From: Bacteroidaceae bacterium
Lineage (GTDB): Bacteria > Bacteroidota > Bacteroidia > Bacteroidales > Bacteroidaceae
Length of the DNA: 64,000 bases
Direction: 5' to 3'
Assembly (NCBI GenBank): GCA_017465905.1
Contig: JAFTVE010000047.1
Span: 62,001 to 126,000, forward strand
This document shows, piece after piece, positions 40,221 through 58,660 of this stretch (the stretch's first letter is position 1; every line of letters starts with the position of its first letter). Made by a program: the position numbers and the translations under genes. Under the pieces are notes generated by a model, which did not search any database, was not told the origin of the DNA, and saw only the letters and a list, made by a program, of their open reading frames with translations.

Positions 40221-40663
40221 TTTATCTGCCATCGTCCGCCACGATGCGTAACCACTTGTTAATATGGTTGGTATTGGCGGACACTGCGTACGATTTTCAG
40301 TGTCAGCCATAACCCGCAAGAAAAGATACCGAGGATCGCTTTATAGCAAGGTCTTTCTCGACACCTTTTGTCTGTCGTTCTCTGTTTGTTACAAGCAATT
40401 TTATTTACTGCTGCGCAAAGGCAAGGTTGCTGTTGCGCAAAGGTAACCTTGCTGTTGGGTAAGGGTAACGTTGCTGTTGCGCAGCGGTAAATAAAAACAC
40501 ACGTCCGTTTCAGAGTGGAAGCATTATGAAATCGCTTTTAGAGATATCTTAACGGCATATAATGACTGCTGATAGGCCGATGTGGACAATCGTACGCAAT
40601 GTCCGCCACTACAATATTCATATACAGAGGATTATCCTCTATTGGCGGACGGTGGCAGATAAA
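40221..40663. repeat. Symmetric repeat element 1 (two-block inverted arms around a 4 x 22-bp array)
   Basis: Outer arms 40221-40241 and 40643-40663 (21 bp, one mismatch); then about 33 unrelated bp on each side; inner arms 40275-40298 and 40585-40608 (24 bp, two mismatches). All four blocks include TGGCGGAC or its complement. A tandem array (40405-40492) lies at the exact centre. There is no gene inside. It sits in the 963-bp gap between SusC 1 and the recombinase gene. Confidence 0.85.
40405..40492. repeat. Tandem array of four 22-bp units (element 1)
   Basis: Units at 40405, 40427, 40449 and 40471, each 22 bp with no spacer. A typical 20-bp core is TTGCTGTTGCGCAAAGGTAA, with partial dyad symmetry around GCGC. 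On the minus strand some units contain TACCTTTG, a -7 consensus. Confidence 0.85.
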
Positions 40664-40946
40664 TAACCTCCTTTATATATATACGCGTACACGCGCACGC
40701 GAGATTACCTCTACTCACCATCATCAGTTCCAATTTTATAAATGTTTTGCATTTAAGAAGACTTGCTGGCTCGGCATAATCCCGCAAGCGGTTTCTGCAC
40801 TCGCTACGCTGCGTCTTTCAATTCTCAATTGTCAATTATGATGCTCTGGCATCAAGATTCCTGGCTAACTCGGCAATGATTAAGCAAGCTTTCATTGCTC
40901 CTCGCAACGCTGCGGAATTGTCAATTAAACTTGTGTTATCCTTGTG
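40664..40946. other. Intergenic DNA with CAATTGTCAATTA-type repeats
   Basis: No gene seen. The stretch holds two near copies of AATTGTCAATTA (about 40833 and 40917), a sequence type also found at 14490-14510, and otherwise looks like decayed DNA. Confidence 0.4.
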
Positions 40947-42107
40947 CTACCGCTTTCGGCATTTTTTCAACTCCTTGATGATGGTTTGGTTGATGACCTC
41001 GCAGTAGTTCATCGTCGTCTTCACGTTCTTGTGCCCGAGCAGCCTCTGCACCGTAGTCACGTTTACCCCCTGCATGAGCAGCAGGGTAGCGTTGGTATGG
41101 CGGGCACTGTGGAAGGAGAAGTGCTTGCGTATGCCTGCATGTTGGGCGATGCTCTGCAGGCGCTTGTCGACGGTCGAGTTCGACGGTAGGCGAAAGAAAG
41201 CATCTACACCCTCAGCATATTTGTCGAGCAGCGCAAGCGCCTTGCCCTCAAACAGCAGGTCGATGGGCAGGCTGATGCTTGCGCCTGTCTTCTGACTTTC
41301 CGTGTTAATCCATGTATGATTGGCTCCACGCTGAATGTTGGCAGCGGTCAGCTGCACAAAATCGGAGTATCGCAACCCCGTGTAGCAGCAGAAGAGGAAG
41401 GCATCAAGTGCGTGTCGCAAATGCTGCTGCTTGGGTGGCACAGCGAGCCGCTCAAGTTTTTCCAGTTCAAATGGTGTCAGATGAGTATGAGCGAAAGGCC
41501 GATGACTGATGCGCCGTTTATGGAAGGGATTGTCCTCCTCGCTCATCAAGCCCCGCACGATGGCTGCGTTGATATAGATGCGTAGATGGGTAAGGTGTTT
41601 GCCCACGGTGTTCGTGTGATACCCACGTGATACCAGCCACGCTTCAAATTTGCTGATGAAACCAGGCGTCAGCTCATCGAAGGCCAGCTCCTCACAGAAC
41701 TCTTTCAGCAGAAAATAAGTGGTATACCTGTTCTCCCGTGTACTCTCGCGTATACGCCCCTTCTCAATCTCACTGGCCATAAAGGGGAGGAACTGCGGTA
41801 CGCTACCATTCTTGACCTCCTCTCGCAGTGCACGCAACGAAATGTTGCGTCCGCTTTTCCATAGCGCAATCTCCTTTCCTTCCAGTTCTGTCATGCGCTC
41901 GGCTATCATCCAATTCAGTTCTTCGGCGTGAGGATGACAGCAAATCTCGCGCTTCGCATCGTCCCATTGCGTGCTATATATATAAATATGAGTAGACACA
42001 TACATGCGGCAACGCTCCAGATATGCTTCTATCTGAACGAGTCCCTTGCCGTCTGATCTCAACTGCTTCTTGCGGTTAAATACCGCCCGATACCTAATCT
42101 TTTTCAT
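40947..42107 (-). CDS. Tyrosine recombinase / site-specific integrase
   Basis: A 386-residue recombinase with the Bacteroidales arrangement: N-terminal arm-binding-like domain (1-100), SAM-like core-binding domain (about 105-205) and catalytic domain. All catalytic residues are present: Arg246 (TGLRYSD), Lys273 (SQKTGA), His333 and Arg336 (HSARHTN), His359 (LLGHKN) and Tyr368 (TTMNY). Such enzymes act in conjugative elements or as DNA invertases controlling surface genes. No other mobile-element gene is here; it lies alone between two divergent SusCD loci. It may serve as an invertase, or be an element remnant. Confidence 0.9.
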   Translation of the reverse strand: MKKIRYRAVFNRKKQLRSDGKGLVQIEAYLERCRMYVSTHIYIYSTQWDDAKREICCHPHAEELNWMIAERMTELEGKEIALWKSGRNISLRALREEVKNGSVPQFLPFMASEIEKGRIRESTRENRYTTYFLLKEFCEELAFDELTPGFISKFEAWLVSRGYHTNTVGKHLTHLRIYINAAIVRGLMSEEDNPFHKRRISHRPFAHTHLTPFELEKLERLAVPPKQQHLRHALDAFLFCCYTGLRYSDFVQLTAANIQRGANHTWINTESQKTGASISLPIDLLFEGKALALLDKYAEGVDAFFRLPSNSTVDKRLQSIAQHAGIRKHFSFHSARHTNATLLLMQGVNVTTVQRLLGHKNVKTTMNYCEVINQTIIKELKKCRKR

Positions 42108-42393
42108 GCTTATTCAATGTTAAATCCCTGTTAATAATATATTTTACAACATAGTTGTAGAAATTCCATCGCAACCCAACCTGTAGCAGAAAGAAACCGA
42201 TTTACACTTTTGACTCGCAAAAAGGATGCCATTTTCACACCACCGATATCATTAAGACAATTCCTTTCCGAATCTTTGGACGTAACATATTCATCAAAAA
42301 GGTTCACCGCGAATTGCTTTTTTACAACTTTTTTACCCTTTTCGATGTTAAAAAGCACTTTTTCGAAGCAAAAATGACGGTTTTTAAGATTTT

Positions 42394-42427
42394 TTTGCGG
42401 TTTTCTCATGGAATTCTATTACTTTTG
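42394..42427 (+). promoter_or_regulatory. Promoter of SusCD locus 2
   Basis: TTTG (42394-42397), a 22-nt spacer, TACTTTTG (42420-42427), about 60 nt before the SusC start. The rest of the 379-bp gap (42108-42393) is AT-rich without a visible gene. Confidence 0.65.
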
Positions 42428-42486
42428 CAGCTTCACAAGAGAGAATAGACAAATTAAACTATTGTTAAACTTTAAGAGAAAAATTT

Positions 42487-45400
42487 ATGAAAGGTAAATT
42501 GATGATGTTATTGGCCTGCCTCTTTATGGGTGCAAGCTTGGTAACTGCTCAAACCTCCAAGGTTACTGGCCTTGTGATTAGTGCCGAGGATGGTGAGCCT
42601 GTGATTGGTGCCTCAGTCGCAGTAAAGGGCGTACCCACTTTGGGTGCCGTTACTGACCTTGATGGCAAGTTTGTAATTGAAAACCTTCCAAGTAGCGCGA
42701 AGACTTTGATTGTTTCTTATGTGGGTATGACCACACAGGAAGTGACCATTCATCCCTACGTAAAGGTGACCATGCAGTCTGATGACGAGGTATTGGAAGA
42801 GGTTGTGATTGCTGTGCCTTACGGTACTGTAAAGAAGGCAAACTTCTCGGGTTCTGCCGCTCAGGTAACTGGTGAGAAGTTGGCTGAGATGCAGGTTGCC
42901 AACATTTCTAACGCACTGCAAGGATCTATCGCTGGTGTACAGACTACGTCTTCGTCTGGTACTCCGGGTTCAGGTTCAAGCATCTTGGTACGTGGTATCG
43001 GTTCTATCAGCGCCGGTCAGAATCCCCTTATCGTTGTTGACGGTGTACCTTACGAGGGTTCATTGAACTCTATCCCTTCACAGGACATCGAGTCATTGAC
43101 TGTATTGAAGGATGCTGCTGCCAACTCTATGTATGGTGCTCGTGGTGCCAACGGTGTAGTAATGGTAACAACTAAGAGTGGTGGCAACCGTCGTCCTCGC
43201 GTGAACTTCGATGCACGTTACGGTTTCAATACTCGTGGCGTAAAGCCCTACAACTCTGTGACAGATGCAGGTGAGTACTACGAGTTGCTGCACGAGTCTG
43301 TAACCAATCAGCTTGCTTCTGAGATGGGTTATATGGCCGCTTCGCAGTATGCCGCCGACAACTTGATTTCTGCTTATGCCAAGTATAACATTTTCAGAGG
43401 TGTTGCCAACAATGCTATTATCAATCCTTTGACAGGTAAGCTGACTGCTGAGGCTGCTGCCGCTGATCTCCTCTGGACTGACAATTGGATGAACAACATG
43501 CAAGATGGTGTTCACCAAGAGTATAACGTAAGTGTATCGGGTGGTAATGACAGAACTTCTGCTTATATGTCTGCAGGTTATCTGTCTGACGAGGGTATTG
43601 CTCCAGGTTCTGGATTCGACCGTATTTCTGTTCGTACAAAGATTGACCAGAAGATTTCTGACCGTATCAAGACTGGCATTAGCTTGTCATACGCTCGCAC
43701 CAATCGTAATTGGTTTGGTGATGAATCAAACAACTATTCAAATATCTTCATGTCATCTCAGATGATTGCCCCTATCTGTCCTGTATATCTGTACGATGAG
43801 AATGGTAACGTCATGATTGACGAGAAAACTGGTAACAAGATGTATGACTACGGTACAGAGCATGGCCGTGGCTATGCAGCACAATCTAACCCCTATGCAC
43901 AGGCTCAGGACGGTATCAATGATGATGTAACCGACAACATCAGTGCCCGTGGTTATTTCAACTGGGAGATTGTAAAGGATTTGACCGTGTCGGCCAACAT
44001 GGCATATGACGTGTTCTCACAGAATCAGATTCAGTTCACAACTCCTATTGCTGGTGATGCTGCAGCTGTTAATGGCCGTGGTTACCGTTATGCTACTCAT
44101 ACAGGCGTGTTCAATGTGAATGAATTGATTAACTGGACTCCTACATTCGGCCTCAGTGACTTGAACGTCATGTTGGGTCACGAGTCTAACGAATACGACT
44201 ATTCGTTGTTCTACGGTCACATGACCAACTTCGTGTCTCCCACCAACCCCGAATTCTCTAACGCTATTAACTATCAGGATATGAGTTCTTACTCATACGG
44301 CAAGCAGCGTGAGGGTTACTTCGGCAAGGTTGACTATGACTTCGACGACCGTTACTACTTGACCGCAAGCATTCGTCGCGATGCCTCTTCAATGTTCCAT
44401 CCCGATGCACGTTGGGGTACCTTCTGGGCTGTTGGCGGTAGCTGGCGTATTTCTAAGGAGTCGTTTATGCGTGGCGCCTCTACTTGGTTGCAGGATGCTA
44501 AGGTAAAGGCTTCTTACGGTACACAGGGTAACGACAACCTATTGAACAGTTCTGGTTACGCATTGTACAAGACTTATACTGACCTCTATTCTATCGCACG
44601 TGTTGACGGCAGTGCAGCTTTGTCTAAGTACCTTCGTGGAAACAAGGATCTCACATGGGAGAAGTCAAAAAACTTCAATGCTGGTGTCGAAGGTCGTCTA
44701 TGGAATCGCGTAAACTTTGACGCTAACTTCTTCGTGAAGGAGACTACCGACATGTTGTTCTACAGTCCTCTGCCCGCATCACAGGGTAGTCCCTCAGGCA
44801 TCTACAAGAATGAGATGGATATGAAGAACGTCGGTTTCGACTTCGAGTTGAGCGCTGACCTCTACCGTGCCGACAACGTATTGGTAACCATGGCTGTTAA
44901 TGGCCTTACCTATAAGAATGCGTTGACCAAGCTCCCCGACAGCAAGGGCACAGAGGGTTATCAGAATGGATACTACTTCCGAGAGCTCGGCAGTCCCCTC
45001 TACAACTGGTCGCTCTACGAATACGTTGGCGTAGATCCTCAGACTGGTCTTCCCCAATACAATGACTACTCTAATATCTACAAGCAGGTACAGGCCGAGG
45101 ATCCTGCTACTGGCGAACCCCTCTTCAATGAGGATGGTACTCCTGTGATGGTTGACACCGATGAAATTATTGGTGAGAAGGTAACCATAGTTAACTCTAC
45201 TGAAGGCCTTAATGACCAAGACAAGCGTCACGATGGCAAGTCTTCTATCGCAGACTTCATCGGTGGTGTTTCACTCAGCGCTCAGGTTTATGGCTTCGAC
45301 GTAGCTGTTCAGACTGCATTCCAGCTCGGTGGTTATGTATACGATGGCACATACGCTTCATTGATGACCTCTGGTGCTAATGGTCAGACATTCCATACCG

Positions 45401-45738
45401 ACATGGCCAACCGTTGGACCACTCCTGGTCAGGTAACTAATGTGCCCCGCCTCCACTACGAAGGTCCTATCGGTACCTATTCAAGCTCTATGAGCGACCG
45501 TTGGTTGACCTCTGCCTCTTACTTCTCGCTGAAGAATGTATCGGTTGGTTACACATTGCCCAAGAATCTTACCAAGAAGGCAGGTATTGAGAAAGCACGT
45601 TTCTACCTCACTGGCGATAACATTTGGCTGAAGTCGGCTCGCAAGGGTCTTGATCCACGTCAGTATGTTGACGGTTCTACTGGCTATGGCTATTCAGCAA
45701 TGAGCACATATTCAGTAGGTGCTAGCTTGGTATTCTAA
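42487..45738 (+). CDS. SusC/RagA family TonB-linked outer-membrane protein, locus 2
   Basis: A 1083-residue SusC homologue: signal peptide (1-21), CarboxypepD_reg-like domain (about 24-105), the plug entry VPYGTVKKANFSGSAAQVTG, plug motifs ILVRGIGSISAGQNPLIVVD and DIESLTVLKDAAANSMYGAR, then a barrel ending YSVGASLVF. It is clearly paralogous to SusC 1 (shared plug motifs GTVKK, RGIGS, GARGANGV) but differs through the barrel, so it probably takes a different ligand. It is followed by SusD 28 bp later. Confidence 0.96.
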   Translation: MKGKLMMLLACLFMGASLVTAQTSKVTGLVISAEDGEPVIGASVAVKGVPTLGAVTDLDGKFVIENLPSSAKTLIVSYVGMTTQEVTIHPYVKVTMQSDDEVLEEVVIAVPYGTVKKANFSGSAAQVTGEKLAEMQVANISNALQGSIAGVQTTSSSGTPGSGSSILVRGIGSISAGQNPLIVVDGVPYEGSLNSIPSQDIESLTVLKDAAANSMYGARGANGVVMVTTKSGGNRRPRVNFDARYGFNTRGVKPYNSVTDAGEYYELLHESVTNQLASEMGYMAASQYAADNLISAYAKYNIFRGVANNAIINPLTGKLTAEAAAADLLWTDNWMNNMQDGVHQEYNVSVSGGNDRTSAYMSAGYLSDEGIAPGSGFDRISVRTKIDQKISDRIKTGISLSYARTNRNWFGDESNNYSNIFMSSQMIAPICPVYLYDENGNVMIDEKTGNKMYDYGTEHGRGYAAQSNPYAQAQDGINDDVTDNISARGYFNWEIVKDLTVSANMAYDVFSQNQIQFTTPIAGDAAAVNGRGYRYATHTGVFNVNELINWTPTFGLSDLNVMLGHESNEYDYSLFYGHMTNFVSPTNPEFSNAINYQDMSSYSYGKQREGYFGKVDYDFDDRYYLTASIRRDASSMFHPDARWGTFWAVGGSWRISKESFMRGASTWLQDAKVKASYGTQGNDNLLNSSGYALYKTYTDLYSIARVDGSAALSKYLRGNKDLTWEKSKNFNAGVEGRLWNRVNFDANFFVKETTDMLFYSPLPASQGSPSGIYKNEMDMKNVGFDFELSADLYRADNVLVTMAVNGLTYKNALTKLPDSKGTEGYQNGYYFRELGSPLYNWSLYEYVGVDPQTGLPQYNDYSNIYKQVQAEDPATGEPLFNEDGTPVMVDTDEIIGEKVTIVNSTEGLNDQDKRHDGKSSIADFIGGVSLSAQVYGFDVAVQTAFQLGGYVYDGTYASLMTSGANGQTFHTDMANRWTTPGQVTNVPRLHYEGPIGTYSSSMSDRWLTSASYFSLKNVSVGYTLPKNLTKKAGIEKARFYLTGDNIWLKSARKGLDPRQYVDGSTGYGYSAMSTYSVGASLVF

Positions 45739-45766
45739 TCAATTAACGTAAAAAGATAATAAGAAT

Positions 45767-47308
45767 ATGAAATTAAATAAATATTTATCATTAGGCCTTA
45801 TCGGTATTTCGTTGGGCTTTGCCTCTTGTGCAGATGACTTCTTGACTGCCGAGGACAAGCAATACGTAGACAAGGAGGTTATTACCGAACTTTTGGAGAA
45901 TGATCCTACATTCATTGACAGTTACGTAAGCGGTATCTGGTCATGGATGTCAACATATGGTACCACATCTACTTCGCACGATGACTTTTCTGTGATGTCT
46001 GTGCTTCACGGCTGCGACATGCAGACTGAGGACATGACTATGTATTACTTCTCATGGTTTGGCTACGACTATGGCTTCGAGAACCGCTCACACGACTACC
46101 GCCGTACCAATGTGAACTGGACTACTTTCTACACCATGATTAATAAGGCAAACGAGATTATCGACTTTTTCCCCGAAGAGCCCGAAGATCCCGCTTTGCG
46201 TGGTGCATTGGGTAATGCTTACGCTGTGCGTGCATACTCATACCTCTATCTGATTCAGTTGTTCCAAGACCCTACTGTGGGTGATGAGAACAACCGCGTA
46301 TTGGCAACAGACTCACTGGGTGTACCCATTGTGGCTTCGTCTTCTGATGGCTATACTACCGAAGAGGCTGACGAACTCCAGGGCCGCAATACTGTAGCTA
46401 AGGTGTTTGAAGTAATCGAAAGCGACATCACTAAGGCTATCGGTCTTTTGGAAGGCTATGCACGTCCGTCAAAGAACTACATTGACAAGTCTGTAGCTCA
46501 AGGTATCGCTGCTCGCTATTACCTCTTGAAGCAGGATTGGACAAATGCTGCTGAAATGGCTAAGAATGCTCGCGCTGAGTATCCTATCATGAGCGGTACT
46601 GCCGAGACCAACGGTATACGCGACGGTTTCATGGATGTAACCAACAGCGAGTGGATGTGGGGATTTGACCACAGCTCTGAAACTCAGACCACTTACGCCT
46701 CATTCTTCTCACACATCTCTAACCTCGCACCCGGTTATTCAGGTATTGAATATACTGGTCGTGGTGTTGATGCACGTCTTTTCAGCAAGATGTCTGTCAA
46801 TGACTACCGCCGTGCTTATTGGTATCGTGATGGTGAAGGCAACACTCAATCCACTGCCGTAGGTGAGGCTACTGCTACAGCCCACCTGTTGCCTTGGGCA
46901 ATGCTTAAGTTCGGTTGGAATGGTGATTGGACTATGGACTACCTTTACATGCGTGCAGCTGAAATGGTACTTATCGAGGCTGAAGCATATGCTCAGCAGG
47001 GCAATACAGCTCAGGCTGCAACCGTACTTGGCGAGTTGATGGCACAGCGCGATCCCTCATGGTCTCAGGCTAATGCTACTGTTGAGGATGTATACTTGCA
47101 GCGTCGTCTCGAACTCATCGGTGAAGGCTTCGGCTATTTCGACTTGAAGCGTCTGAACAAGGGCGTTGACCGCAACTACGAGGGTAGCAACCACATGGCA
47201 GGTTATAAGTTCGTAGTTCCCCAAGACAGCGTTTGCTGGACCTACCAGATTCCGCAGAGAGAAATGCAGGAGAACTCACACATCGCTGCAGATCAGCAAA
47301 ATCCGTAA
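45767..47308 (+). CDS. RagB/SusD family nutrient-binding lipoprotein, locus 2
   Basis: A 513-residue SusD homologue: lipobox FASC followed by ADDF, helical SusD core (GALGNAYAVRAYSYLYLIQL), and the C-terminal signature LQRRLELIGEGFGYFDLKRL then YQIPQREMQEN. It is the surface lid of the adjacent SusC. It resembles SusD 1 in layout but little in the ligand-facing middle. Confidence 0.95.
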   Translation: MKLNKYLSLGLIGISLGFASCADDFLTAEDKQYVDKEVITELLENDPTFIDSYVSGIWSWMSTYGTTSTSHDDFSVMSVLHGCDMQTEDMTMYYFSWFGYDYGFENRSHDYRRTNVNWTTFYTMINKANEIIDFFPEEPEDPALRGALGNAYAVRAYSYLYLIQLFQDPTVGDENNRVLATDSLGVPIVASSSDGYTTEEADELQGRNTVAKVFEVIESDITKAIGLLEGYARPSKNYIDKSVAQGIAARYYLLKQDWTNAAEMAKNARAEYPIMSGTAETNGIRDGFMDVTNSEWMWGFDHSSETQTTYASFFSHISNLAPGYSGIEYTGRGVDARLFSKMSVNDYRRAYWYRDGEGNTQSTAVGEATATAHLLPWAMLKFGWNGDWTMDYLYMRAAEMVLIEAEAYAQQGNTAQAATVLGELMAQRDPSWSQANATVEDVYLQRRLELIGEGFGYFDLKRLNKGVDRNYEGSNHMAGYKFVVPQDSVCWTYQIPQREMQENSHIAADQQNP

Positions 47309-47335
47309 TCATTAATTACTCAATAAAAGAAGAAT

Positions 47336-48175
47336 ATGAAAAAGTTAAATATCAAATTCTTATCACTTCTCACTCTCACAGCAGGCCTTCTGGCCAGCTG
47401 TGCTGATGAGGTGGTTGTAAAGGATGAGGCAGATAAGAATATCTTCCCCACATCTACTGTTTCTGTTTCTGACATGAAACTGGTAGAGAATGGAAACAAA
47501 AGTATTGTAGTTTCTGCTGTTGTCGCCAACAGTGACACACTTAATGTGATGGAGTATGGTTTCGTTTACTCAACTAACGAAGATATGTCGGACCCTGCTG
47601 CAGTGAAGGTTGCAGTTAAGGAGGATGGCGTGATGAGCGCAAAGATTTCTATTGCTCCCAGCACTACCTATTATATAGCAGCTTATGCATATGTTCGTGG
47701 TGCTGCAGTGCAAAGTGATGCTATTGCTGTAACTACAAACGATCCCGATCCTATCACTGTAGCTTCACTGAATGGCTCAACATATTATGCTACTGGTGTA
47801 GCTGATGCATGGGGAGATTCTTGGAACATTGAGACAACATTGGTTGCAGGTGAAGGTGACTCTATTTTCGTATGCAACCTTGATCCCTATTTTGCAACCA
47901 ATGGATTCGTGGCAGCAAATGGTTACAATGTCCTTGGCGGTGTTCTGGCAGTTTCAGAAGATGGTTCTTCTGCGACTATTACATGCTCTCCTGGACAGGC
48001 TGTTGGCTATCAGGATGTCGTGTTCTATGGTTACGATATGGAAACAGGAAACATCCTTGACATCGTTATTGAGATCTATAACTATGGTCAGTCTGCAGCG
48101 CTTAAGAACTGGACTGGTACATACTCTGGTGGATGGTGGTCAATGATAAGTCCTTGTGCATTGACACTTAAGTAA
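47336..48175 (+). CDS. SusCD-associated surface lipoprotein, locus 2
   Basis: A 279-residue lipoprotein (lipobox LLASC, then ADEV). Residues about 40-140 look like one fibronectin-III-type domain of the kind with a YGFVYSTNEDM motif and STTYYIAAYAYVRGAAVQSD; the C-terminal half is beta-rich. Third gene of the SusCD 2 operon and positionally equal to a surface glycan-binding protein. Ligand unknown. Confidence 0.75.
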   Translation: MKKLNIKFLSLLTLTAGLLASCADEVVVKDEADKNIFPTSTVSVSDMKLVENGNKSIVVSAVVANSDTLNVMEYGFVYSTNEDMSDPAAVKVAVKEDGVMSAKISIAPSTTYYIAAYAYVRGAAVQSDAIAVTTNDPDPITVASLNGSTYYATGVADAWGDSWNIETTLVAGEGDSIFVCNLDPYFATNGFVAANGYNVLGGVLAVSEDGSSATITCSPGQAVGYQDVVFYGYDMETGNILDIVIEIYNYGQSAALKNWTGTYSGGWWSMISPCALTLK

Positions 48176-48197
48176 TTTATCATTACACCTATTATAT

Positions 48198-48229
48198 ATT
48201 CAGGGCACCGACGCGTCGGTGCCCTGAAT
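48198..48229 (+). terminator. Terminator of SusCD locus 2
   Basis: Near-perfect palindrome: CAGGGCACCGAC (48201-48212) and GTCGGTGCCCTG (48215-48226), extended by ATT/AAT on the outside. Confidence 0.85.
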
Positions 48230-48262
48230 TGTTTATTAAGCTTACGAATTCATAATCAGTTC

Positions 48263-50006: not shown

Positions 50007-50043
50007 ACGTCTTTGCTTTAGTTGTTAGCACAGATTATCTGTA

Positions 50044-50142: not shown

Positions 50143-50150
50143 TATCTTTG
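50143..50150 (+). promoter_or_regulatory. -7 element of pta-ackA
   Basis: TATCTTTG. It implies a long leader of about 130 nt before pta, in which I see no known riboswitch fold. Confidence 0.5.
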
Positions 50151-50285
50151 CAGCTAACCGTGGAGAAATACTGCATTCGCTGAGTAGAAATATAACGCAA
50201 GCTTTATCTCTTCCCACTTGTTTATGACTATCTGATAAGGACATTCGAGACACAATAACTATATTATAACAAATAAAAAAGTACT

Positions 50286-51293
50286 ATGGATTTGTTAAGC
50301 CAGATTATTGCGCGTGCCAAGAGTAACAAGCAGCGCATCGTACTCCCCGAAGGAACCGAGGAGCGTACACTGAAAGCCGCCGACCGCCTTCTTGCCGATG
50401 AGGTAGCCGACCTGATTATTATCGGTAACTCGGAAGAGATCAAGGGACTTGCAGCCCAGTGGGGACTCACCCATCTGGACAAGGCCACCATCATCGACCC
50501 CGAGAATCATCCGAAGAAGGAGGAGTATGCCAACCTGCTCTTCGAGTTGCGTAAGAAGAAGGGCATGACACCCGAGGAGGCTCAGAAGCTGGTGACCAAT
50601 CCGCTCTATCTGGGTTGCCTTATCATCAAGGCTGGCGATGCCGACGGTCAGCTCGCAGGTGCACAGAACACTACAGGTAACGTATTGCGCCCCGCATTGC
50701 AGATTATCAAGACCGCTCCGGGCATCAGCTGCGTGTCAGGTGCTTTCGTGATGATTACCCAGACTCCGCAGTATGGCGAGAATGGCGTGCTCATCATGGG
50801 CGACTGTGCCGTGACTCCCGTGCCCGATGCTGCTCAGCTCTCTCAGATTGCCGTATGCTGCGCCGACACTGCTCGCGCCGTAGCTGGCATCGAGGATCCC
50901 CGCGTGGCTATGCTGAGCTTCTCTACCAAGGGTTCGGCCAAGCATGAGTGTGTAGACAAGGTGACTGAGGCTCTCCGCCTGGCTAAGGAGCTGGCTCCCG
51001 ACCTCAAGATCGACGGTGAGCTCCAGGCCGACGCTGCTCTTGTGCCCTCTGTAGGTGCCAGCAAGGCTCCCGGCTCTGAGATTGCCGGCAAGGCCAACGT
51101 ACTGGTATTCCCCACACTCGAGGTGGGCAACATTGGCTACAAGCTCGTGCAGCGCTTGGGTGGTGCCGAGGCTATCGGCCCCATCCTGCAGGGTATCGCA
51201 CGCCCCGTGAACGACCTTTCACGCGGCTGCTCTATTGATGACGTATATAACATGGTAGCCATCACAGCTTGCCAGGCACAGGCGGCAAAGTAA
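50286..51293 (+). CDS. pta: Phosphate acetyltransferase
   Basis: A 335-residue short-form Pta converting acetyl-CoA and phosphate to acetyl phosphate in the cytoplasm. Family features: ARAKSNKQRIVLPEGTEERT at the N-terminus, GAQNTTGNVLRPALQIIKT, and the C-terminal NVLVFPTLEVGNIGYKLVQR followed by GPILQGIARPVNDLSRGC. It is followed by ackA; together they form the acetate/ATP-generating branch of fermentation. Confidence 0.97.
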   Translation: MDLLSQIIARAKSNKQRIVLPEGTEERTLKAADRLLADEVADLIIIGNSEEIKGLAAQWGLTHLDKATIIDPENHPKKEEYANLLFELRKKKGMTPEEAQKLVTNPLYLGCLIIKAGDADGQLAGAQNTTGNVLRPALQIIKTAPGISCVSGAFVMITQTPQYGENGVLIMGDCAVTPVPDAAQLSQIAVCCADTARAVAGIEDPRVAMLSFSTKGSAKHECVDKVTEALRLAKELAPDLKIDGELQADAALVPSVGASKAPGSEIAGKANVLVFPTLEVGNIGYKLVQRLGGAEAIGPILQGIARPVNDLSRGCSIDDVYNMVAITACQAQAAK

Positions 51294-51339
51294 TTATAAT
51301 TTACAATTTGACAATTTACTATTTACGATAATAGAAGAG

Positions 51340-52533
51340 ATGAAAATCCTCGTATTAAACTGCGGTAGTTCATCCATCAAGTACAAACTCTTCGAGATGG
51401 ACACCCAATCGGTACTCGCCCAGGGCGGTATCGAGAAGATCGGCCTTCCTGGCTCATTCCTTAAGTTGACCTTGCCCAATGGCGAGAAGGTAATACTCGA
51501 AAAAGACATCCAGGAGCACACCGCTGGTGTGGAGTTTATCCTGCAGACACTCACCGGTGCCGAGTATGGCGCACTGAAGTCGCTCGACGAGCTCGATGCC
51601 GTAGGTCACCGTATGGTACACGGTGGCGAGAAGTTCAGCCAGTCGGTACTCCTCAATGAGGAGGTGTTGGCTGCTTTCGAGGCTTGCAACGACCTGGCTC
51701 CCCTGCACAATCCCGCCAACCTCAAGGGTGTGGCTGCCATCACCGCACTGCTCCCCGAGATTCCTCAGGTGGGCGTGTTCGACACCGCTTTCCATCAGAC
51801 CATGCCCGACTATGCCTACATGTATGCCGTTCCCTACGAACTGTACGAGAAGTACGGCGTGCGTCGCTACGGCTTCCACGGTACCTCACACCGCTACGTA
51901 TCGCAGCGCGTATGTGACTACCTCGGCATCAAGCCCGAAGGCACCAAGATCATCACCTGCCACATCGGCAACGGTGCGTCAATCTCGGCCGTTGTGGATG
52001 GCAAGTGTGTAGACACCAGCATGGGTCTCACCCCGCTCGAAGGTCTCATGATGGGTACCCGTAGCGGCGACATCGACGGTGGTGCCGTTACCTTCATCAT
52101 GGAGAAGGAGGGCTTGGACGCTACAGGTGTATCGAACCTGCTCAACAAGAAGTCGGGCGTTCAGGGCATCTCAGGCGTATCTTCAGACATGCGCGAGATC
52201 TGCGCTGCTGTAGACGCAGGCCATCCTCGTGCAACACTCGCACTCAACATGTATGAGTACCGCATCCGCAAGTATATCGGCTCATACGCTGCCGCTATGG
52301 GTGGTGTCGACGTTATCCTCTTCACCGGTGGTGTAGGCGAGAACCAGGACAACACACGCGAAGCTGCATGCCGCGGCCTCGAGTTCATGGGCGTAAAGAT
52401 TGACACGGAGAAGAACAAGACCGTCCGTGGCGAAGAGGCCATCATCTCTACTCCCGACTCTAAGGTTAAGGTAGTAGTCATCCCCACCGACGAGGAGCTG
52501 ATGATTGCTACTGATACGATGAACCTTCTTTAA
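51340..52533 (+). CDS. ackA: Acetate kinase
   Basis: A 397-residue cytoplasmic kinase that turns acetyl phosphate and ADP into acetate and ATP. Diagnostic motifs: VLNCGSSSIKYKLFEM (phosphate 1), VGHRMVHGGEKF, FDTAFHQTMPDYAYMYAVPY, HIGNGASISAV and TGGVGENQDNTRE. It follows pta by 46 bp in the same operon. The sequence after the stop enters a GAATTC-rich repeat. Confidence 0.98.
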   Translation: MKILVLNCGSSSIKYKLFEMDTQSVLAQGGIEKIGLPGSFLKLTLPNGEKVILEKDIQEHTAGVEFILQTLTGAEYGALKSLDELDAVGHRMVHGGEKFSQSVLLNEEVLAAFEACNDLAPLHNPANLKGVAAITALLPEIPQVGVFDTAFHQTMPDYAYMYAVPYELYEKYGVRRYGFHGTSHRYVSQRVCDYLGIKPEGTKIITCHIGNGASISAVVDGKCVDTSMGLTPLEGLMMGTRSGDIDGGAVTFIMEKEGLDATGVSNLLNKKSGVQGISGVSSDMREICAAVDAGHPRATLALNMYEYRIRKYIGSYAAAMGGVDVILFTGGVGENQDNTREAACRGLEFMGVKIDTEKNKTVRGEEAIISTPDSKVKVVVIPTDEELMIATDTMNLL

Positions 52534-52540
52534 GTAAATT

Positions 52541-52631
52541 CTGAATTCTGAATTCTGAGTATCCTTCCTCGATGCTGTTTTTAGGGTCGCGGAGCTTATT
52601 TTAGAATTCATAATTCAGAATTCATAATTCT
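52541..52631. repeat. GAATTC-rich intergenic repeat 1
   Basis: CTGAATTCTGAATTCTGAG at the left end and a run of ATAATTC/AGAATTC units at the right (52602-52631). GAATTC occurs at 52543, 52550, 52604 and 52618. The ends are partly complementary and could pair. Confidence 0.75.
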
Positions 52632-52638
52632 TGAAACC

Positions 52639-53610
52639 ATGTACGAACAACTACTAAATCTCGACCCCATAAAAATCAATTTCAGCAAGTCCGGTATGGA
52701 TATGCTGAATATCGCCTTGGCCGTCGTGATGTACGGTGTAGCCCTCGGCATCAAGCCGGGCACCTTTGCCAAGGTGTTCCGCGAGCCCAAGTCTATCCTC
52801 GTGGGGCTTATCGGTCAATGGATACTCATTCCCTCGCTCACCTTCCTCCTGATTATCATCTTCCACAAGCATATCACTCCGATGGTGGCTATGGGTATGA
52901 TTCTGGTGGGCTCTTGTCCGGGAGGCAACGTGTCGAACTTCATCACCTCCATCTCAAGGGGCAACCGCGAGCTCTCGGTATCGATGTCGGCCGTGACCAC
53001 TACGGCGGCCATCGTCACCACACCGGCCAACTTTGCCATTTGGGGCAGCCTCTACGTGCGCTACCTCAATCGCCACGCGGCCGATGCACTACAGACGCTC
53101 ACCATACCCATCTGGGATATCTTCGTCACGGTGTTCATCCTGCTCGGCGTGCCCTTGGCATTGGGCGTTCTCACCACACACTATGCCCCGAAGGTAGCCA
53201 AGGCGCTCAACAAGCCCTTGCAGTACCTCTCCATTGTGGTGTTCCTCGCTATGGTGCTGATCTCGTTCTGGAACAACTTCGACATCTTCGTCAAGTACCT
53301 CAAGTGGATTGTGCTTATCGTAGCCATCCACAACGGACTGATTCTCTTCATGGGCTATTGGCTCGGTGAGCTCTCGGGCCTGCCGCGCCCCGACCGCCGC
53401 GCCATCACCATCGAGATGGGCATCCAGAACTCGGGTCTCGGCCTCATCCTCCTGTTCAACCCCAACATCTTCCCGCCCGAACTGCAGAATGGCGGTATGC
53501 TCATCATCACCGCATGGTGGGGCATCTGGCACATCATCGCAGGCCTCACCGCCGCAGGCATCTTCCGCCTCCGCGACAGGTATAAGTGGAAAGAGGGTAA
53601 AGTTGATTAA
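52639..53610 (+). CDS. Bile acid:sodium symporter family (BASS) transporter
   Basis: A 323-residue inner-membrane protein with about nine hydrophobic segments. BASS-family signals: MYGVALGIKPGTF, GSCPGGNVSNFITSISRGN, and GIQNSGLGLILLFNPN. The family moves organic anions (bile acids, keto acids, pantoate and others) with Na+; the real substrate is not shown. Flanked by GAATTC-rich repeats on both sides, so likely a separate transcription unit, though no clear promoter was seen. Confidence 0.88.
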   Translation: MYEQLLNLDPIKINFSKSGMDMLNIALAVVMYGVALGIKPGTFAKVFREPKSILVGLIGQWILIPSLTFLLIIIFHKHITPMVAMGMILVGSCPGGNVSNFITSISRGNRELSVSMSAVTTTAAIVTTPANFAIWGSLYVRYLNRHAADALQTLTIPIWDIFVTVFILLGVPLALGVLTTHYAPKVAKALNKPLQYLSIVVFLAMVLISFWNNFDIFVKYLKWIVLIVAIHNGLILFMGYWLGELSGLPRPDRRAITIEMGIQNSGLGLILLFNPNIFPPELQNGGMLIITAWWGIWHIIAGLTAAGIFRLRDRYKWKEGKVD

Positions 53611-53740
53611 TTCTGAATTCTGAATTTTGAATTGTGACACTCCTTGTGAGAGAAAACATCGTGTGCTTAATTGTGTCATGAGCGCAAAAAACATCGCGTA
53701 CTTAATTCAGAATTCAGAATTCAACATTCAGAATTCTTAT
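53611..53740. repeat. GAATTC-rich intergenic repeat 2
   Basis: AATTCTGAATTCTGAATTTT at the left end and complementary AATTCAGAATTCAGAATTC at the right end flank about 65 bp. GAATTC occurs at 53615, 53710, 53717 and 53731. Confidence 0.75.
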
Positions 53741-53741
53741 C

Positions 53742-55031
53742 GTGCAAGTATACAATAAAAACATCGGATATACGCTTCTGCGCAGCCTTTGGGTAAACCC
53801 CATCATCAGCCTGTCGCTGCGTCGCCTTGTCGTGCGAGGCAAGGAAAACCTGCCCAAGGACGGGGCCGTCATCATCGGTAGCAACCACACCAATGCGTTG
53901 CTCGACCCCTTGGTGATACTCCGCTCGATGAACCGCGCCACCGTCTTTATGACACGTGCCGACATCTTCCGCCGTCCCCTCCTGCAGAAGGTATTCACCT
54001 TCCTCAAGATGCTGCCCATCTACCGCATCCGCGATGGCTATGCCGCCGTGAAGCAAAACGAGGAGATCATACGCAAGTGCGTCGATGTGCTCCGCCACCG
54101 CTACCCGCTGGCCCTCTTCCCCGAGGCCACACACCGCCCCAAGCACTCGCTCATGGGCCTGAGCAAAGGCATCTTCCACATCGCCCTCGAGGCCAACAAG
54201 CAGTTTGGCCATGAGAAGCCCGTCTACATCGTGCCCACCGGCATAGAGTATGGCCGCTACTTCCGCTACCGCTCCAACGCGGTGGTTACCTATGGCGAGC
54301 CCATCAACGTCACCGAGTTTGTGCGCCAGCACGAGGGTGAGGTCACCCCAGCCCGTCTGCTGGCCATGCTGCGCGAGGAGCTGGCCCGTCGCATGAGCGA
54401 GCTCATTGCCTTCGTGCCCGACACCGAGGACTACGATGCCCGCTGGGAGCTCACCAAGCTATGTACCGCCCAGTCGGCCCCCCTGTCGCCTGCCGAGCGC
54501 CTCACTCTCAACCGTACTGCCATCGCCCACATCGTGGAGAAGACCGACAGCGACCCCGAGGCCGCCCAAGCCCTCTACGCCGATGCCTTGGCATTCAAGA
54601 AGGAGCGTCGCCTGCGCCGCATACACCCCTCGTCCACCGGGCATAAGCACCCCCTCATCGCCTCCATCGGCAACACCGTGGCCCTGCTCTGCGCCCTGCC
54701 CTACTATCTCTTCTGTGCACTGGTGACCCTCCCCTCATGGGTGACCTCCCACTGCATCGTGAGCAAGCTCAAGGACAAGGCCTTCAGCAACACCGCCCGC
54801 TTGGGTGTGAACCTCGCCCTGTGGCCCCTGCTCATCATCATCTGGAGCATCGTGGCCCTGTGCACCCTGCCTCTGGTGCCCGCCCTGCTGGCCATCCTCC
54901 TGCTGTTGCCTGCCGTAGCCTTCTTCTACGACTACAACGCCTTCGCCCTCCACACCTGGAGCGACTGGCAATGGACACGGGCCAAGCACCTGCACGCCCG
55001 CCTCAAGGAGCTGCTCCGTAGGTGCAAGTGA
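53742..55031 (+). CDS. PlsC-like acyltransferase with C-terminal membrane domain
   Basis: A 429-residue lysophospholipid/glycerolipid acyltransferase. The catalytic motif is NHTNALLD (His49 and Asp55, the HX5D variant seen in many Bacteroidales members), with the glycerol-phosphate binding motif FPEATH (126-131; Gly-to-Ala relative to FPEGT). Two or three TM helices occupy about 310-400. The start is GTG at 53742 (MQVYNK), since no ATG precedes the conserved region. Probable role: second acylation step of phospholipid synthesis or acyl remodelling. Confidence 0.87.
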   Translation: MQVYNKNIGYTLLRSLWVNPIISLSLRRLVVRGKENLPKDGAVIIGSNHTNALLDPLVILRSMNRATVFMTRADIFRRPLLQKVFTFLKMLPIYRIRDGYAAVKQNEEIIRKCVDVLRHRYPLALFPEATHRPKHSLMGLSKGIFHIALEANKQFGHEKPVYIVPTGIEYGRYFRYRSNAVVTYGEPINVTEFVRQHEGEVTPARLLAMLREELARRMSELIAFVPDTEDYDARWELTKLCTAQSAPLSPAERLTLNRTAIAHIVEKTDSDPEAAQALYADALAFKKERRLRRIHPSSTGHKHPLIASIGNTVALLCALPYYLFCALVTLPSWVTSHCIVSKLKDKAFSNTARLGVNLALWPLLIIIWSIVALCTLPLVPALLAILLLLPAVAFFYDYNAFALHTWSDWQWTRAKHLHARLKELLRRCK

Positions 55032-55055
55032 TGCCTTTCGGATACAAACAATAAA

Positions 55056-55086
55056 CTCCCGACTCTCATTCCTGTAAGGTCGGGAG
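55056..55086. terminator. Bidirectional terminator between PlsC-like and DUF262-HNH genes
   Basis: CTCCCGAC (55056-55063) pairs with GTCGGGAG (55079-55086); T-rich sequence follows on both strands. Confidence 0.7.
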
Positions 55087-55087
55087 C

Positions 55088-56212
55088 TTATTTTGCTCCC
55101 TTGCGTCGGTTACAATCGCGACATAGCATTTGGCAATTTTCGATGACAGTACGGCCTCCTTCACGCCATGGGGTGATGTGGTCGCCTTCCATAAACTCGA
55201 GGTCGAACTCTTTGCCGCATATCGTGCAGCGATGGGCTTGCTGCTCCCATACGGCCAGTTTGATGTCGTCGGGGAAGGCACGCAAATCAAGATAGTGCTC
55301 ATCGCCAGTCAGCACGTAGGGGATAATGCCCTGCTTGCGCTCCACCTCACTATCGCGTATCAACTCTGATATGCGCTTGCCAAGTGCAGCGGTGTCGAGT
55401 GCTTCGCTTCCAAACTTATCATATAGCTCTGCCCAGTCGAGTCCCTTCATTATCTTCTTGAACTTCCTCATATCGAAGTTGGTGATGGCCCAGTTGAGCA
55501 CGGTTTGGAAATATGTCCATAGGTTATTGGCATTGGGGTCGTGCTGATGCTGTGCCATATAGCCGAGCAGTGTCTGTCGCTTGCCTTGACGTGTCTCGTG
55601 GTCGGCCATCCATTGAAGGGCTGTCTTTAGATAGTCCTGACGTATGGGTGTGCCGTTCACCAAATCTTTGCCGAGGCGATAGGCTCCGCAGTTCGATTTG
55701 GAGAAATGGCGCTTGGCATCGCTCACGAAGGGACCCGCATAGATAGCATTGTTTATCTCCTGCTCGTTGAGCGGCTTGCCGGCTATATTGATGGTCTTGA
55801 ACCATTCGAGCTTCTCCGATGCATCGCCCTCGCATACATATACGGTGAGTCGATAGTCGAGGATACGGCGTTGCACATCTTCGGGTTGGTTGAAGAAGTT
55901 CTTGAAGTCATACGAATACTTGCCTGCCACGTATTCACATAGTGAAAGCGTACGTTGCTGCCCATCCATTACTTCGTAGGGGCATTCGGCATCATCGCTT
56001 CGGCGTACCCAATACATCACGTTCAAGGGGTATCCACGCAGTACGGTGGTGATAACGGCTTGCTGCTCCTTCTCGCTATAGATAAACTCGCGTTGATAAG
56101 GCGGACGAATGTCGAGCAATCCATCATAGCCTCTTACGCCCTGTTCGTCGTTGTTCATATAGCCACGGGTAATCTCGCCCACGGTCACTTCTATTTGCTT
56201 AATCGTCATCAT
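55088..56212 (-). CDS. DUF262 domain protein with C-terminal HNH endonuclease
   Basis: A 374-residue protein. Residues about 1-200 are a DUF262 (GmrS/ParB-like) domain with IRPPYQREFIY and the DGQQR motif (83-87). The C-terminal 46 residues are an HNH nuclease: zinc ligands Cys329/Cys332 and Cys364/Cys367, catalytic GDHI (Asp344-His345), and Asn359. The start at 56212 overlaps the methyltransferase stop (ATGA), so translation is coupled. DUF262-nuclease proteins act in anti-phage defence (GmrSD, BrxU, SspE); a restriction role with the coupled methyltransferase is inferred. Confidence 0.88.
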   Translation of the reverse strand: MMTIKQIEVTVGEITRGYMNNDEQGVRGYDGLLDIRPPYQREFIYSEKEQQAVITTVLRGYPLNVMYWVRRSDDAECPYEVMDGQQRTLSLCEYVAGKYSYDFKNFFNQPEDVQRRILDYRLTVYVCEGDASEKLEWFKTINIAGKPLNEQEINNAIYAGPFVSDAKRHFSKSNCGAYRLGKDLVNGTPIRQDYLKTALQWMADHETRQGKRQTLLGYMAQHQHDPNANNLWTYFQTVLNWAITNFDMRKFKKIMKGLDWAELYDKFGSEALDTAALGKRISELIRDSEVERKQGIIPYVLTGDEHYLDLRAFPDDIKLAVWEQQAHRCTICGKEFDLEFMEGDHITPWREGGRTVIENCQMLCRDCNRRKGAK

Positions 56213-57300
56213 AGCTTTCTTGGATGTTTGTTGCGGATTAAAATTCGTGCATATTGACGTTCTCCTTTGACTACTCCACAACCGCCTCTATCTTGCGGGT
56301 GTGGAACATAATTTAGACTCTCCAATATTTCTTTCGGTGCAGATGCTCTTGTATTACCACAGGCTTGCCATATTATTTCAAACTGCTCCGGGTTATATTT
56401 ATCTAAGAATGTAATAGGAACTCCCATTAGTTCAGTGTAGTTGAAAGGAATATCAGCTGTTTTTCCTACATTAATAGCATTATAATTATCATAGCTTGGA
56501 TATTCTTCAGGTGAATAATGACAAACTAAATCAAGTTCCTCGTGCCGTTTATAATGATCAAGGTTGGTGAACCATCTAATTCCCTTTACACGTATATATC
56601 GCTTCCCATCGTCATCTAGCCCACATCCTGCGGCATTCATCGGATAATCATCTGGAACATTAAATTTGCGGTCGCCGCTTGTAATGCTCGGTCCTAACCA
56701 TACTTTATTATCTTTAATCAGTGGAAACACCTCTTTGTATGTAATAGCATTGACATTACCGATAATCAAAAATTTCTTCTCGTAGTCCATCAACTGCGCA
56801 ACATACTCCCTAAATAAAGAGAATGGAGGATTGGTGACCACAATGTCTGCTTGCTTCAACAATTCTATGCACTCAGGGTCACGGAAGTCACCCGTCTTTA
56901 AGGTAGTGATTACGTTCTTCTCATTCTGCAATAGGTAGCGCACATCCGATAGGTCTACTGCGCCATCGCCATTCATATCGCGCACCTCAGTAATCTCTAC
57001 CTTATAGGCAATCTTCTTGGGTTCGTCGGTAAAGTCGCCAAAGTCTATCATCAGTTCGTTTCCCTGCACGGGCGAACCATTATAGCAAGTGCAGATGAGC
57101 TTTTTCAACCCCAGCTGATTGAAGCGAAGCGCAAAGTATTTGAAGAAATTGCTTTCGTAGGGGTCGTCACAATTGCAGAGCACCACCTTGTCGCGGAAGT
57201 GTGGCCAGTAGTGTTGTAGTTCACGCTCAATGTCGGTTAACTGCGTATAGAATTCATCTTTACGCGCCAGTCGTGCAGCTGTTAGGTTTTCATTTGGCAT
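56209..57300 (-). CDS. M.EcoRI-like adenine-specific DNA methyltransferase
   Basis: A 363-residue N6-adenine methyltransferase clearly of the M.EcoRI family: RKDEFYTQLTDIERELQHYW, CNCDDPYESNFFKYFALRF, motif IV NPPF (157-160), and the distal GVPITFLDKYNPEQFEIIW. M.EcoRI methylates GAATTC; the same target here is a reasonable guess, not proven. Relative to M.EcoRI as I recall it there is an insert with an EF-hand/dockerin-like loop (DMNGDGAVDLSD, 108-119). No R.EcoRI homologue is in the window; the downstream, overlapping gene encodes DUF262-HNH instead. Confidence 0.92.
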   Translation of the reverse strand: MPNENLTAARLARKDEFYTQLTDIERELQHYWPHFRDKVVLCNCDDPYESNFFKYFALRFNQLGLKKLICTCYNGSPVQGNELMIDFGDFTDEPKKIAYKVEITEVRDMNGDGAVDLSDVRYLLQNEKNVITTLKTGDFRDPECIELLKQADIVVTNPPFSLFREYVAQLMDYEKKFLIIGNVNAITYKEVFPLIKDNKVWLGPSITSGDRKFNVPDDYPMNAAGCGLDDDGKRYIRVKGIRWFTNLDHYKRHEELDLVCHYSPEEYPSYDNYNAINVGKTADIPFNYTELMGVPITFLDKYNPEQFEIIWQACGNTRASAPKEILESLNYVPHPQDRGGCGVVKGERQYARILIRNKHPRKL

Positions 57301-57345
57301 AATGATCGATAGTCGTTATCGCACCCAACTATCAATCACGCCATG

Positions 57346-57458
57346 ACGCAATAGGGGCATAAAGAGAGCGTGATGCTCCTTATTGCGTATAGCAAGAGGC
57401 GGCGTCGGATGGAGCCTCTGTCAATCATAAGAATGCATCACGCTGAACGTGATTGCAT
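57346..57458 (-). promoter_or_regulatory. Three hairpins upstream of the methyltransferase
   Basis: 57346-57360 with 57373-57388 (ACGCAATA core); AGAGGC with GCCTCT around 57395-57420; AATGCATCACG with CGTGATTGCATT around 57432-57459 (one bulge). They may be operators or leader structures. A weak -7-like TACCTTCG lies further up at 57655-57648 on the minus strand. I see nothing in 57460-57640. Confidence 0.45.
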
Positions 57459-57709
57459 TGCTAAAATTGATTGAACAGAAGCAAACCCATACGGTTCGCC
57501 TGTCACATATTATTTCGTGCTTGTTATACCTTTTTAGAGTTTCCGACGCTCTTGGCTATACGCGAAATAATAGCGAATGCTTAAATTTTCCAATATGTCT
57601 TGTAGTCCACTTCGCCAACCTTTGGGAAGGGTGAAGGGGACAACGATGCGAAGGTACTACATTTTTCTGAGATTTGAGGTATGGATACCGCTTTTTCTCT
57701 CGGCAAGTC

Positions 57710-57910
57710 TTGTGGTTATAAAATATTACCTATGTTTGCATAAATAACCTACTATCATGGAAAAGTACAAGTGCAGCAAGCGCGATATGAGGAGACATTG
57801 CAAACCATCCGCGCCATCGGTCAGGAGCTGATGGCTGTATGACGGAAGAGCGATTACTGGTTTAGCACATTCAGGCTTAAATCCCTACCCTCAATGCGAG
57901 AGTAGGGATT
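57710..57910 (+). ncRNA. Possible small transcript (promoter, short ORF, terminator)
   Basis: A -7 element TATGTTTG (57731-57738) with TTG at 57710-57712, then an ATG at 57757 with a 24-codon frame (MEKYKCSKRDMRRHC...), and a terminator-like hairpin (57880-57892 with 57898-57910, 12 of 13 pairs). A second frame across the same bases reads QVQQARYEETLQTIRAIGQE and looks more like real coding sequence, so this may instead be the tail of a decayed gene. Confidence 0.3.
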
Positions 57911-58184
57911 GTTATTTATGAAATGCGCAACATTTACGCAAAAGTTTACGCAAAAGTTGCACTTGTAACTATTATGTAAATCAGTGCGTAATGCACCAAC
58001 TTGCGCAAATCTTTGTTTGGCTACTGTTTTTTGTTTATGGTTATGATGGATGAAACTCACAACTCATAACTCCTCTCTCCCGAAGTTTCCCCTCGTGGGA
58101 CGGTAGTAGCCCCTGTCATGATGCACATGCTTCGATTTCTTGATTTTCATAGGCGATAGGGATTTTTCTAAGGTTTCAATTAAT

Positions 58185-58272
58185 TTTCTATCTGCAGGCA
58201 GAATACTTTCTACTTGCAGATAGAATAGTTTCTATTTGCAATTAGAAACATTTCTATTCGCGAATAGAAACA
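58185..58272. repeat. Tandem array of four 22-bp palindromic units (element 2)
   Basis: Units start at 58185, 58207, 58229 and 58251. The last core, TTTCTATTCGCGAATAGAAA, is a perfect 20-bp palindrome followed by CA; the others keep TTTCTA...TAGAA with changed centres. Confidence 0.9.
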
Positions 58273-58346
58273 TTTTTCTCTTTGCCCAACAAAGATGATC
58301 TTTTGTTCCATTTTTTTTTGCAAGCTAATCTTGTTTAATAATCTGC

Positions 58347-58469
58347 AAGCGTACGGTCTGTTATCACCTGCGCACGCTCTGCGGCAAAGGCTACATCGAG
58401 CGCATCCGTCAAGGTGTATATCGCAAGGTGGTGAAGCGTGTGAACAGAAAAAACAGACCTGCAGCATAG
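58347..58469 (+). pseudogene. Winged-helix-like coding remnant inside element 2
   Basis: About 40 codons in frame to a TAG at 58467: KRTVCYHLRTLCGKGYIERI, then RQGVYRKVVKRV. The pattern resembles a short winged-helix DNA-binding segment (YHLRxLCxKGYIxRxxxGVY). No start or upstream domain is visible. Confidence 0.4.
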
Positions 58470-58660
58470 ATTTGCGCAAATTGTTGCGTTATACGCTGAA
58501 AATCATCGGAGTTGCAAGTGCAACTTTTGCGTAAACTTTTGCGTAAATACTTGCGTAAATGATGCGAGTACAATAGGGTATAGGCGATAGTAAACAGAGA
58601 ACTCCCTCTCGGATGGCCTGAGAAGGAGTTCTTTTCTTTATGATTTGTATCTCTCCGAGT

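Follow-up and report, generated by a model that had tools for sequence, protein, structure and literature searches.

The 64-kb window, by which we mean the whole stretch of DNA that was analysed, contains three structures in which inverted arms enclose an array of four 22-bp units. Element 1 (40221-40663) is built of short, paired arm blocks around its array:

40221-40241, + strand, left outer arm block of the TTATCTGCCATCGTCCGCCA type (inverted-repeat comparison)
40271-40298, + strand, left inner arm block of the TGGCGGACACTGCGTACGAT type (inverted-repeat comparison)
40405-40492, + strand, array of four 22-bp dyad units (dyad and lag-22 score)
40585-40612, - strand, right inner arm block (inverted-repeat comparison)
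40643-40663, - strand, right outer arm block (inverted-repeat comparison)

The outer blocks pair as 40222-40241 with 40643-40662, and the inner blocks, 28 nt in length, are 89% complementary; the arm layout is CTGCCA..GTCCGCCA, followed by about 30 bp and then TGGCGGACACTGCGTACGAT. Element 2 (57932-58548) has arms of 101 nt each (78%) and scraps of two genes:

57932-58032, + strand, left iteron arm with 12-bp iterons TTTACGCAAAAG, inner TTGCGCAAATC
58076-58150, - strand, fused scraps of an HU-HIG gene (E 0.001 and 2.8e-4 against a 0.7-kb stretch; nucleotide match)
58185-58272, + strand, array of four 22-bp dyad units (dyad and lag-22 score)
58335-58466, + strand, scrap of a DUF3987 gene, residues 491-534, 86% identical to the relative L036 (E 7e-21)
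58448-58548, - strand, right iteron arm (inverted-repeat comparison)

The HU-HIG scraps correspond to about the first 18 and the last 12 codons, the two matches overlapping by about 5 codons, and the array centres, read by eye, are TGCA in three units and CGCG in one. Element 3 (16.4-18.9 kb), which the initial annotation had not connected to the other two, is an intact relative inside the window:

16442-16547, + strand, left arm (inverted repeat, 127 alignment columns, 77%, E 1.6e-26)
16546-17865, - strand, VapE-like helicase gene, 439 aa, with a C-terminal winged helix
18013-18100, + strand, array of four 22-bp units with weaker dyads (score 1.18)
18145-18786, + strand, HU-HIG gene, 213 aa
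18790-18916, - strand, right arm, inverted repeat with 16442-16547

The array of element 3 ends 44 bp upstream of the HU-HIG gene start. Two tRNA-Val genes lie immediately outside the element.

Arrays were scored by the dyad symmetry of each 20-bp core plus the identity at lag 22, over four units. Element 2 scored 1.61, element 1 scored 1.40 and element 3 scored 1.18; 100 dinucleotide shuffles of the window gave at most 1.08, and the only window sites to score at least 1.0 were the arrays of these three elements. The two structures originally described, with inverted arms and four 22-bp dyad units, are thus real.

A genome search recovered a 2.8-kb relative of element 2, L036, on another contig of the window's own genome. 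L036 has arms of the same type as element 2; its HU-HIG gene (217 aa, leftward) and its DUF3987 gene (534 aa, rightward) diverge from an intergenic region formed by the array. Element 2 aligns to L036 in five blocks (left arm; HU 3' end; HU 5' end; array; DUF3987 end plus right arm), an alignment that marks it as a gene-less, internally deleted member of the DUF3987 branch.

Element 1 contains no detectable gene remnants (best E 0.15), and its assignment comes from its relatives. In L185, its arms and array enclose an HU-HIG gene and a VapE-like gene with DUF3874; in L191, they surround a truncated HU gene and a VapE-like gene with DUF3874; L190 carries both L185 genes and the array, with inverted arms undetected; and in L044, element-1 arms flank a lone HU-HIG gene, the array there being another sequence. 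By these comparisons element 1 is a gene-less, internally deleted member of the VapE-like-helicase branch. Element 1 occurs with the same flanks in two further genomes of the genus (L177, L178). Of 201 genomes sampled across the family, 5 contain its arm pattern, and these 5 are all among the 12 of the window's genus; the reversed control pattern was present in 0 of 201.

The plan of the family is an iteron arm, an HU-HIG gene, usually four 22-bp dyads, a divergent ATPase gene (DUF3987 or VapE-like helicase) and an inverted iteron arm, within 0.4-4 kb; in gene-bearing relatives the array usually occupies the intergenic region from which the genes diverge. The plan shared by elements 1 and 2 is inherited from such relatives. 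The proposal that the two represent a class with diverging sequence and conserved plan holds at many loci of the genus, where arms and arrays co-occur, and beyond the genus at one locus of another family; the class includes non-autonomous palindromic forms, gene-less copies being found alongside gene-bearing relatives, and the suggested binding of protein is probably by an HU-like protein, relatives pairing the array with an HU-HIG gene. In the window's own genome, an array scoring at least 1.10 lies just upstream in 8 of 20 HU-HIG matches. A ninth site, near L069 (1.16), was left out of this count; it lies on the 3' side of the gene and looks like two terminator-like hairpins.

Fifteen loci from other genomes were chosen by VapE match, a subset of all matches. 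L333, from G410 of a different family, combines HU, array and VapE in divergent order within a 31-bp inverted pair. In L332 (also G410) and in L334, from G005 of a second genus of the window's family, an array lies upstream of the VapE gene, and a weak HU match on the far side of that gene converges with it. L345, at 34% identity, scores a borderline 1.16 for its array and lacks an HU match; and the remaining 11 of the 15, at 25-30% identity, have no array (best 0.97). The 22 named DUF3987 relatives are on Bacteroidaceae or Bacteroidales MAG records, the stated sources being ruminants. VapE relatives below 60% identity occur on 29 plasmid-collection records, the commonest names being mostly Phocaeicola and Bacteroides, and DUF3987 relatives on 4. 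Cargo-like genes lie within the arms of L045 (a YhcG-type nuclease) and L047 (a CAAX-protease).

Two regularities of the initial annotation survived in part. The array midpoints do fall near the element midpoints here (about 7 and 12 bp), but not as a rule among relatives: the array is displaced from the centre by about 500 bp in gene-bearing L036 and by more than 100 bp in the deletion forms L189, L180 and L038, and the central position in elements 1 and 2 is partly chance. Exactly four units is the commonest count, but five (L139, L038, L131), three (L196) and two (L183) also occur; an array that is always central or always of four units is therefore rejected. Gene-less copies usually retain the array, a tendency biased by the retrieval of many loci through an array match. 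Because the gene-less deletion copy L186 has no array, L187 one unit (by eye) and L183 two, the array may be an aid, not a requirement. At L048, L049 and L146, arrays stand alone, with no arms detected.

Compensatory change in the dyad pairs was absent across 14 element-1-family arrays, where 81.6% of dyad cells were paired against a shuffled mean of 83.0% and the covariation score was reached by 498 of 500 shuffles. A folded RNA or cruciform role was rejected on this account; the symmetry looks instead like paired protein half-sites rather than a folded strand, which fits binding by a symmetric protein dimer.

In the DUF3987 branch, array centres track the type of HU-HIG as sequence covariation. 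The seven loci with C8-type HU have a TGCA centre in 28 of 28 units, whereas the eight with C15-type HU have CGCG in 30 of 32 and TGCG in 2 of 32; sorted by main centre, the C8 and C15 loci differ with a Fisher probability of 1.6e-4, in which loci of related species are not independent. These counts cover 15 of 24 rows, the others being one C16 locus (CGCG in 3 of 4 units), five L185-type loci with mixed centres (GCGC in 8 of 20 units), two window-type loci with no single array centre, and L240, which has no array. The covariation is to be read with the caveat that the HU gene start adjoins the array.

A second covariation, again in the DUF3987 branch, links the arm iterons to the C-terminal winged helix of the ATPase. 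The arm adjoins the DUF3987 gene, directly 3' of its stop codon, and the iterons on this side fall into about eight types (by eye); the winged helix changes with iteron type, while the remainder of the protein may be at least 90% identical. Winged-helix distance correlated with arm distance across 20 loci (r 0.77, partial 0.75), whereas ATPase core distance gave r 0.27 (partial 0.13); neither winged-helix value was reached in 5000 permutations, which leave in the ancestry that the loci share. The test covered 20 of 23 DUF3987 genes (L247, L141 and L144, below 250 aa, were left out) and compared a fixed length of 110 nt at every locus, which cuts the arm short in L233, L238 and L239.

Since the gene end adjoins the arm, this correlation could partly be linkage, and the other arm, beyond the HU gene, served as the control. 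An automated test of HU-side arms at first gave r 0.18 over 10 of the 11 loci with HU (L237 was dropped for a short flank, and L232 earlier for a truncated HU), a value we attribute to shared spacer in the 190-nt windows and to three loci (L240, L241, L133) whose HU lies outside the same intact element. When arms were cut by hand in seven elements of five types, L045 being represented by the inner of its two ATPase-side arms, the ATPase-side arm with which the HU-side arm had most 7-mers in common was of the same type in every case (7 of 7); for L140, the best sharing was with another element of the same type (25, against 9 for its own). The HU C-termini are nearly identical in L036 (arm A) and L045 (arm B) despite their differing arms. 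The codes at the ends and the centre are not locked together, since arm types A and E each occur with both HU types. In the VapE branch, arms lie downstream of the VapE-like gene in L185 and L191.

Searched against protein families, VapE and HU-HIG of the window hit those of phage replication and DNA binding, and the predicted fold of VapE matches PriRep1 and the SaPI5 primase-helicase (among the matches listed), which suggests, for the VapE branch, a self-loading helicase with a C-terminal DNA-binding domain. For the DUF3987 core, the structure prediction had a mean pLDDT of 41, Foldseek gave a best E of 0.34 with mostly winged-helix proteins among the higher-probability rows, and no credible match was found in solved structures. 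A relation between VapE and DUF3987 by profile was rejected (probability 0.3%, only the P-loop aligned). With so low a pLDDT for the core and no VapE homology detected, initiator function in element 2's branch is proposed by analogy. Pfam describes HU-HIG (PF18291) as an HU domain fused to winged-helix, Ig or glycine-rich parts.

Among viral contigs, the top IMG/VR VapE relative, L249, carries a 22-bp array, and the window VapE alone gave no match; a pattern scan found no relative of this DUF3987 among 31 stretches, and two HU-HIG queries found no HU-HIG near the 80 viral VapE loci kept. Two of these 80, L298 and L316, score just above 1.1 in AT-rich, low-complexity sequence.

No transposase, integrase, packaging or capsid gene was recognised among the listed ORFs of five relatives of 1-4 kb (L036, L044, L045, L185, L191; main ORFs scanned with Pfam). 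No consistent target-site duplication (TSD) was found in 13 type-C elements, three of which are one insertion in three genomes, or in 14 others; the search yielded only scattered 5-8-bp matches outside the iterons. Across 31 type-C ends, conservation extends about 22 bp beyond CTGCCA. The right flanks of L191 and L195 become homologous to other genomes 27 to 36 bp out from the same motif, which sets the boundary between these points and places it to within about 15 bp. The search for empty sites, suggested as a check at the outset, produced no clean one: left and right flanks were at separate places or around occupied sites, and in the best candidate, L195 against G072, the left flank had diverged. 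Nor did the sequences analysed contain a direct sign of replication, excision or insertion. With neither a consistent TSD nor a clean empty site, we infer mobility, including the entry of a copy into a new site, from the dispersed copies, the gene-less derivatives and the cargo.

We reason that these are gutted HU-HIG/ATPase elements, in which HU-HIG would bind the array and the ATPase the end iterons, leading to replication of the element, with deleted copies served in trans; we place the probability of this reading at roughly 70%. HU-HIG, an HU body with a winged helix, would control the divergent promoters from the array and perhaps help to pair the ends. The ATPase, a putative self-loading initiator helicase in the VapE branch, would bind iterons at both ends and start element replication, by analogy with SaPI Rep, which acts at iterons lying immediately after its gene. 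New copies would then enter new sites through a further step that is absent from these data, and intact relatives would serve those deleted copies in which the arms, and in most cases the array, survive. A bolder form of the idea, which we offer tentatively and would not favour at even odds, is a transposable element devoid of transposase: an initiator helicase with a swappable C-terminal winged helix would set the inverted-iteron ends, an HU-winged-helix protein on the four-unit array would fold the element, element-specific replication would replace DDE chemistry, and non-coding derivatives would spread in trans.

Several other readings were weighed. Phage or plasmid satellites of the PICI kind, whose excised circles would join the arms into a bipartite iteron origin and be reinserted by a recombinase encoded elsewhere, are unlikely, yet the strongest of the alternatives: the phage-family and primase-helicase matches, the array of L249 and the plasmid-collection records all point that way, against which stand the lack of recognised integrase, packaging or capsid genes in the listed 1-4 kb elements, and the viral scans, which gave no HU-HIG near the 80 VapE loci kept and no relative of this DUF3987. 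Somewhat less probable are ordinary MITEs, with ends moved in trans by an IS transposase and HU-HIG and the ATPase as cargo. Short, gene-less copies with inverted ends are indeed dispersed at several loci and have gene-bearing relatives, and BrickBuilt, for which movement by IS5 has been discussed, would be a precedent (PMC4596501); but about eight arm types (by eye) are matched to the winged helix of their own ATPase, the gene-bearing relatives encode HU-HIG with DUF3987 or VapE-like proteins rather than a recognised transposase acting on the same ends (listed ORFs of five relatives), and no consistent TSD was found. A DDE insertion sequence fares similarly, neither a DDE transposase (main ORFs, Pfam) nor a consistent TSD having been found.

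Static regulatory or partition-like sites, in which arrays and arms are operators of HU-HIG and the ATPase spread by rearrangement, we consider improbable. Partition sites often are repeats bound by small DNA-binding proteins, the array lies in a divergent promoter region and follows HU type, and the element-1 insertion is common to three genomes; against this, the arms are found where the two genes end (3') rather than at promoters, and the same arms and arrays recur at many loci, some as gene-less copies, some with foreign cargo. A chance coincidence of two unrelated repeats, for which only the dissimilar base sequences of elements 1 and 2 speak, can practically be dismissed: the scores are far above those of 100 shuffles, and the outcome that would have made the arrays isolated coincidences, arms and arrays failing to co-occur elsewhere, is refuted by their co-occurrence in the relatives.

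No description of such elements was recognised in the open-access literature, judged by titles and abstract openings; in the available text of PMC10434189, DUF3987 and HU genes appear only as expression-table rows. The closest likeness in plan is BrickBuilt, a MITE of Porphyromonas gingivalis, which is likewise of the Bacteroidales and intergenic, and in which inverted ends enclose tandem repeats of about 22-23 nt (PMC4596501). BrickBuilt, however, has 23-nt units in up to 22.8 copies, a non-repetitive leader and tail and 12-bp IS5-like TIRs, and the consulted part of that paper describes no HU/ATPase parent (PMC4596501), whereas the present elements have gene-bearing relatives, 22-bp dyads, usually four, and iteron arms of 20 to 127 bp. 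Classical IS-derived MITEs share the gene-less, inverted-ended, dispersed derivatives (PMC10969869); unlike them, the present elements gave no consistent TSD and no recognised transposase in their gene-bearing relatives. SaPI and SCC Rep proteins offer a helicase that has a C-terminal DNA-binding domain and whose gene is followed directly by short iterons (PMC7581432), but here the repeats recur inverted at both element ends, together with an HU-HIG gene and an array, and, unlike PICI and SaPI, no integrase or phage gene was recognised among the five relatives' ORFs. With the HU-HIG family (PF18291) the HU domain is held in common, tied here to a 22-bp array and inverted iteron arms.

Gene-bearing relatives whose proteins are each apparently matched to their own repeats, and in which no transposase was recognised, hint at an unfamiliar route by which DNA could spread in gut bacteria. 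If the favoured reading of gutted, trans-served HU-HIG/ATPase elements is true, the family would be a compact natural experiment in which centre and ends are each read by their own protein family, each specificity code being visible and open to domain swapping. It would also link satellite replication initiators to transposition, account for a group of repeats dispersed in gut Bacteroidales and provide an example of mobility apparently without a transposase.

The 22-bp dyad array was also found outside elements 1 and 2, the two gene-less elements in which inverted arms surround four such units. Element 3, which carries a VapE-like helicase gene and an HU-HIG gene, is a further member, which the initial annotation did not connect with its two-element observation; two tRNA-Val genes (16039-16245) lie beside it. 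The features concerned, in the window unless a fetched locus (L) is named, are:

16442-18916, element 3, an intact HU-HIG/VapE-like member bounded by inverted arms and containing a 22-bp array of its own
40735-40926, separate dispersed repeat adjoining element 1 (query positions 836-1027)
56209-57300, gene for an EcoRI-type adenine methylase, on the left side of element 2
L045:6285-7358, YhcG/DUF1016 PDDEXK nuclease gene, cargo-like, inside arms
L047:3329-3985, CAAX-type protease gene, cargo-like, inside arms
L048:3649 and L049:3257 (own genome) and L146:2263 (genome G053), solo 22-bp dyad arrays, no arms detected

The dispersed repeat beside element 1 gave dozens of matches across the genus. 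The left flank of element 2 (57781-57930) is common to the window and G053 (L128) but the right-hand one is not, which points to a probable rearrangement at element 2.

L249, the IMG/VR sequence most closely related to the VapE family of the window, carries a 22-bp array (L249:1219; score 1.28) upstream of the VapE gene, suggesting that the array may also be present on a viral or satellite contig.
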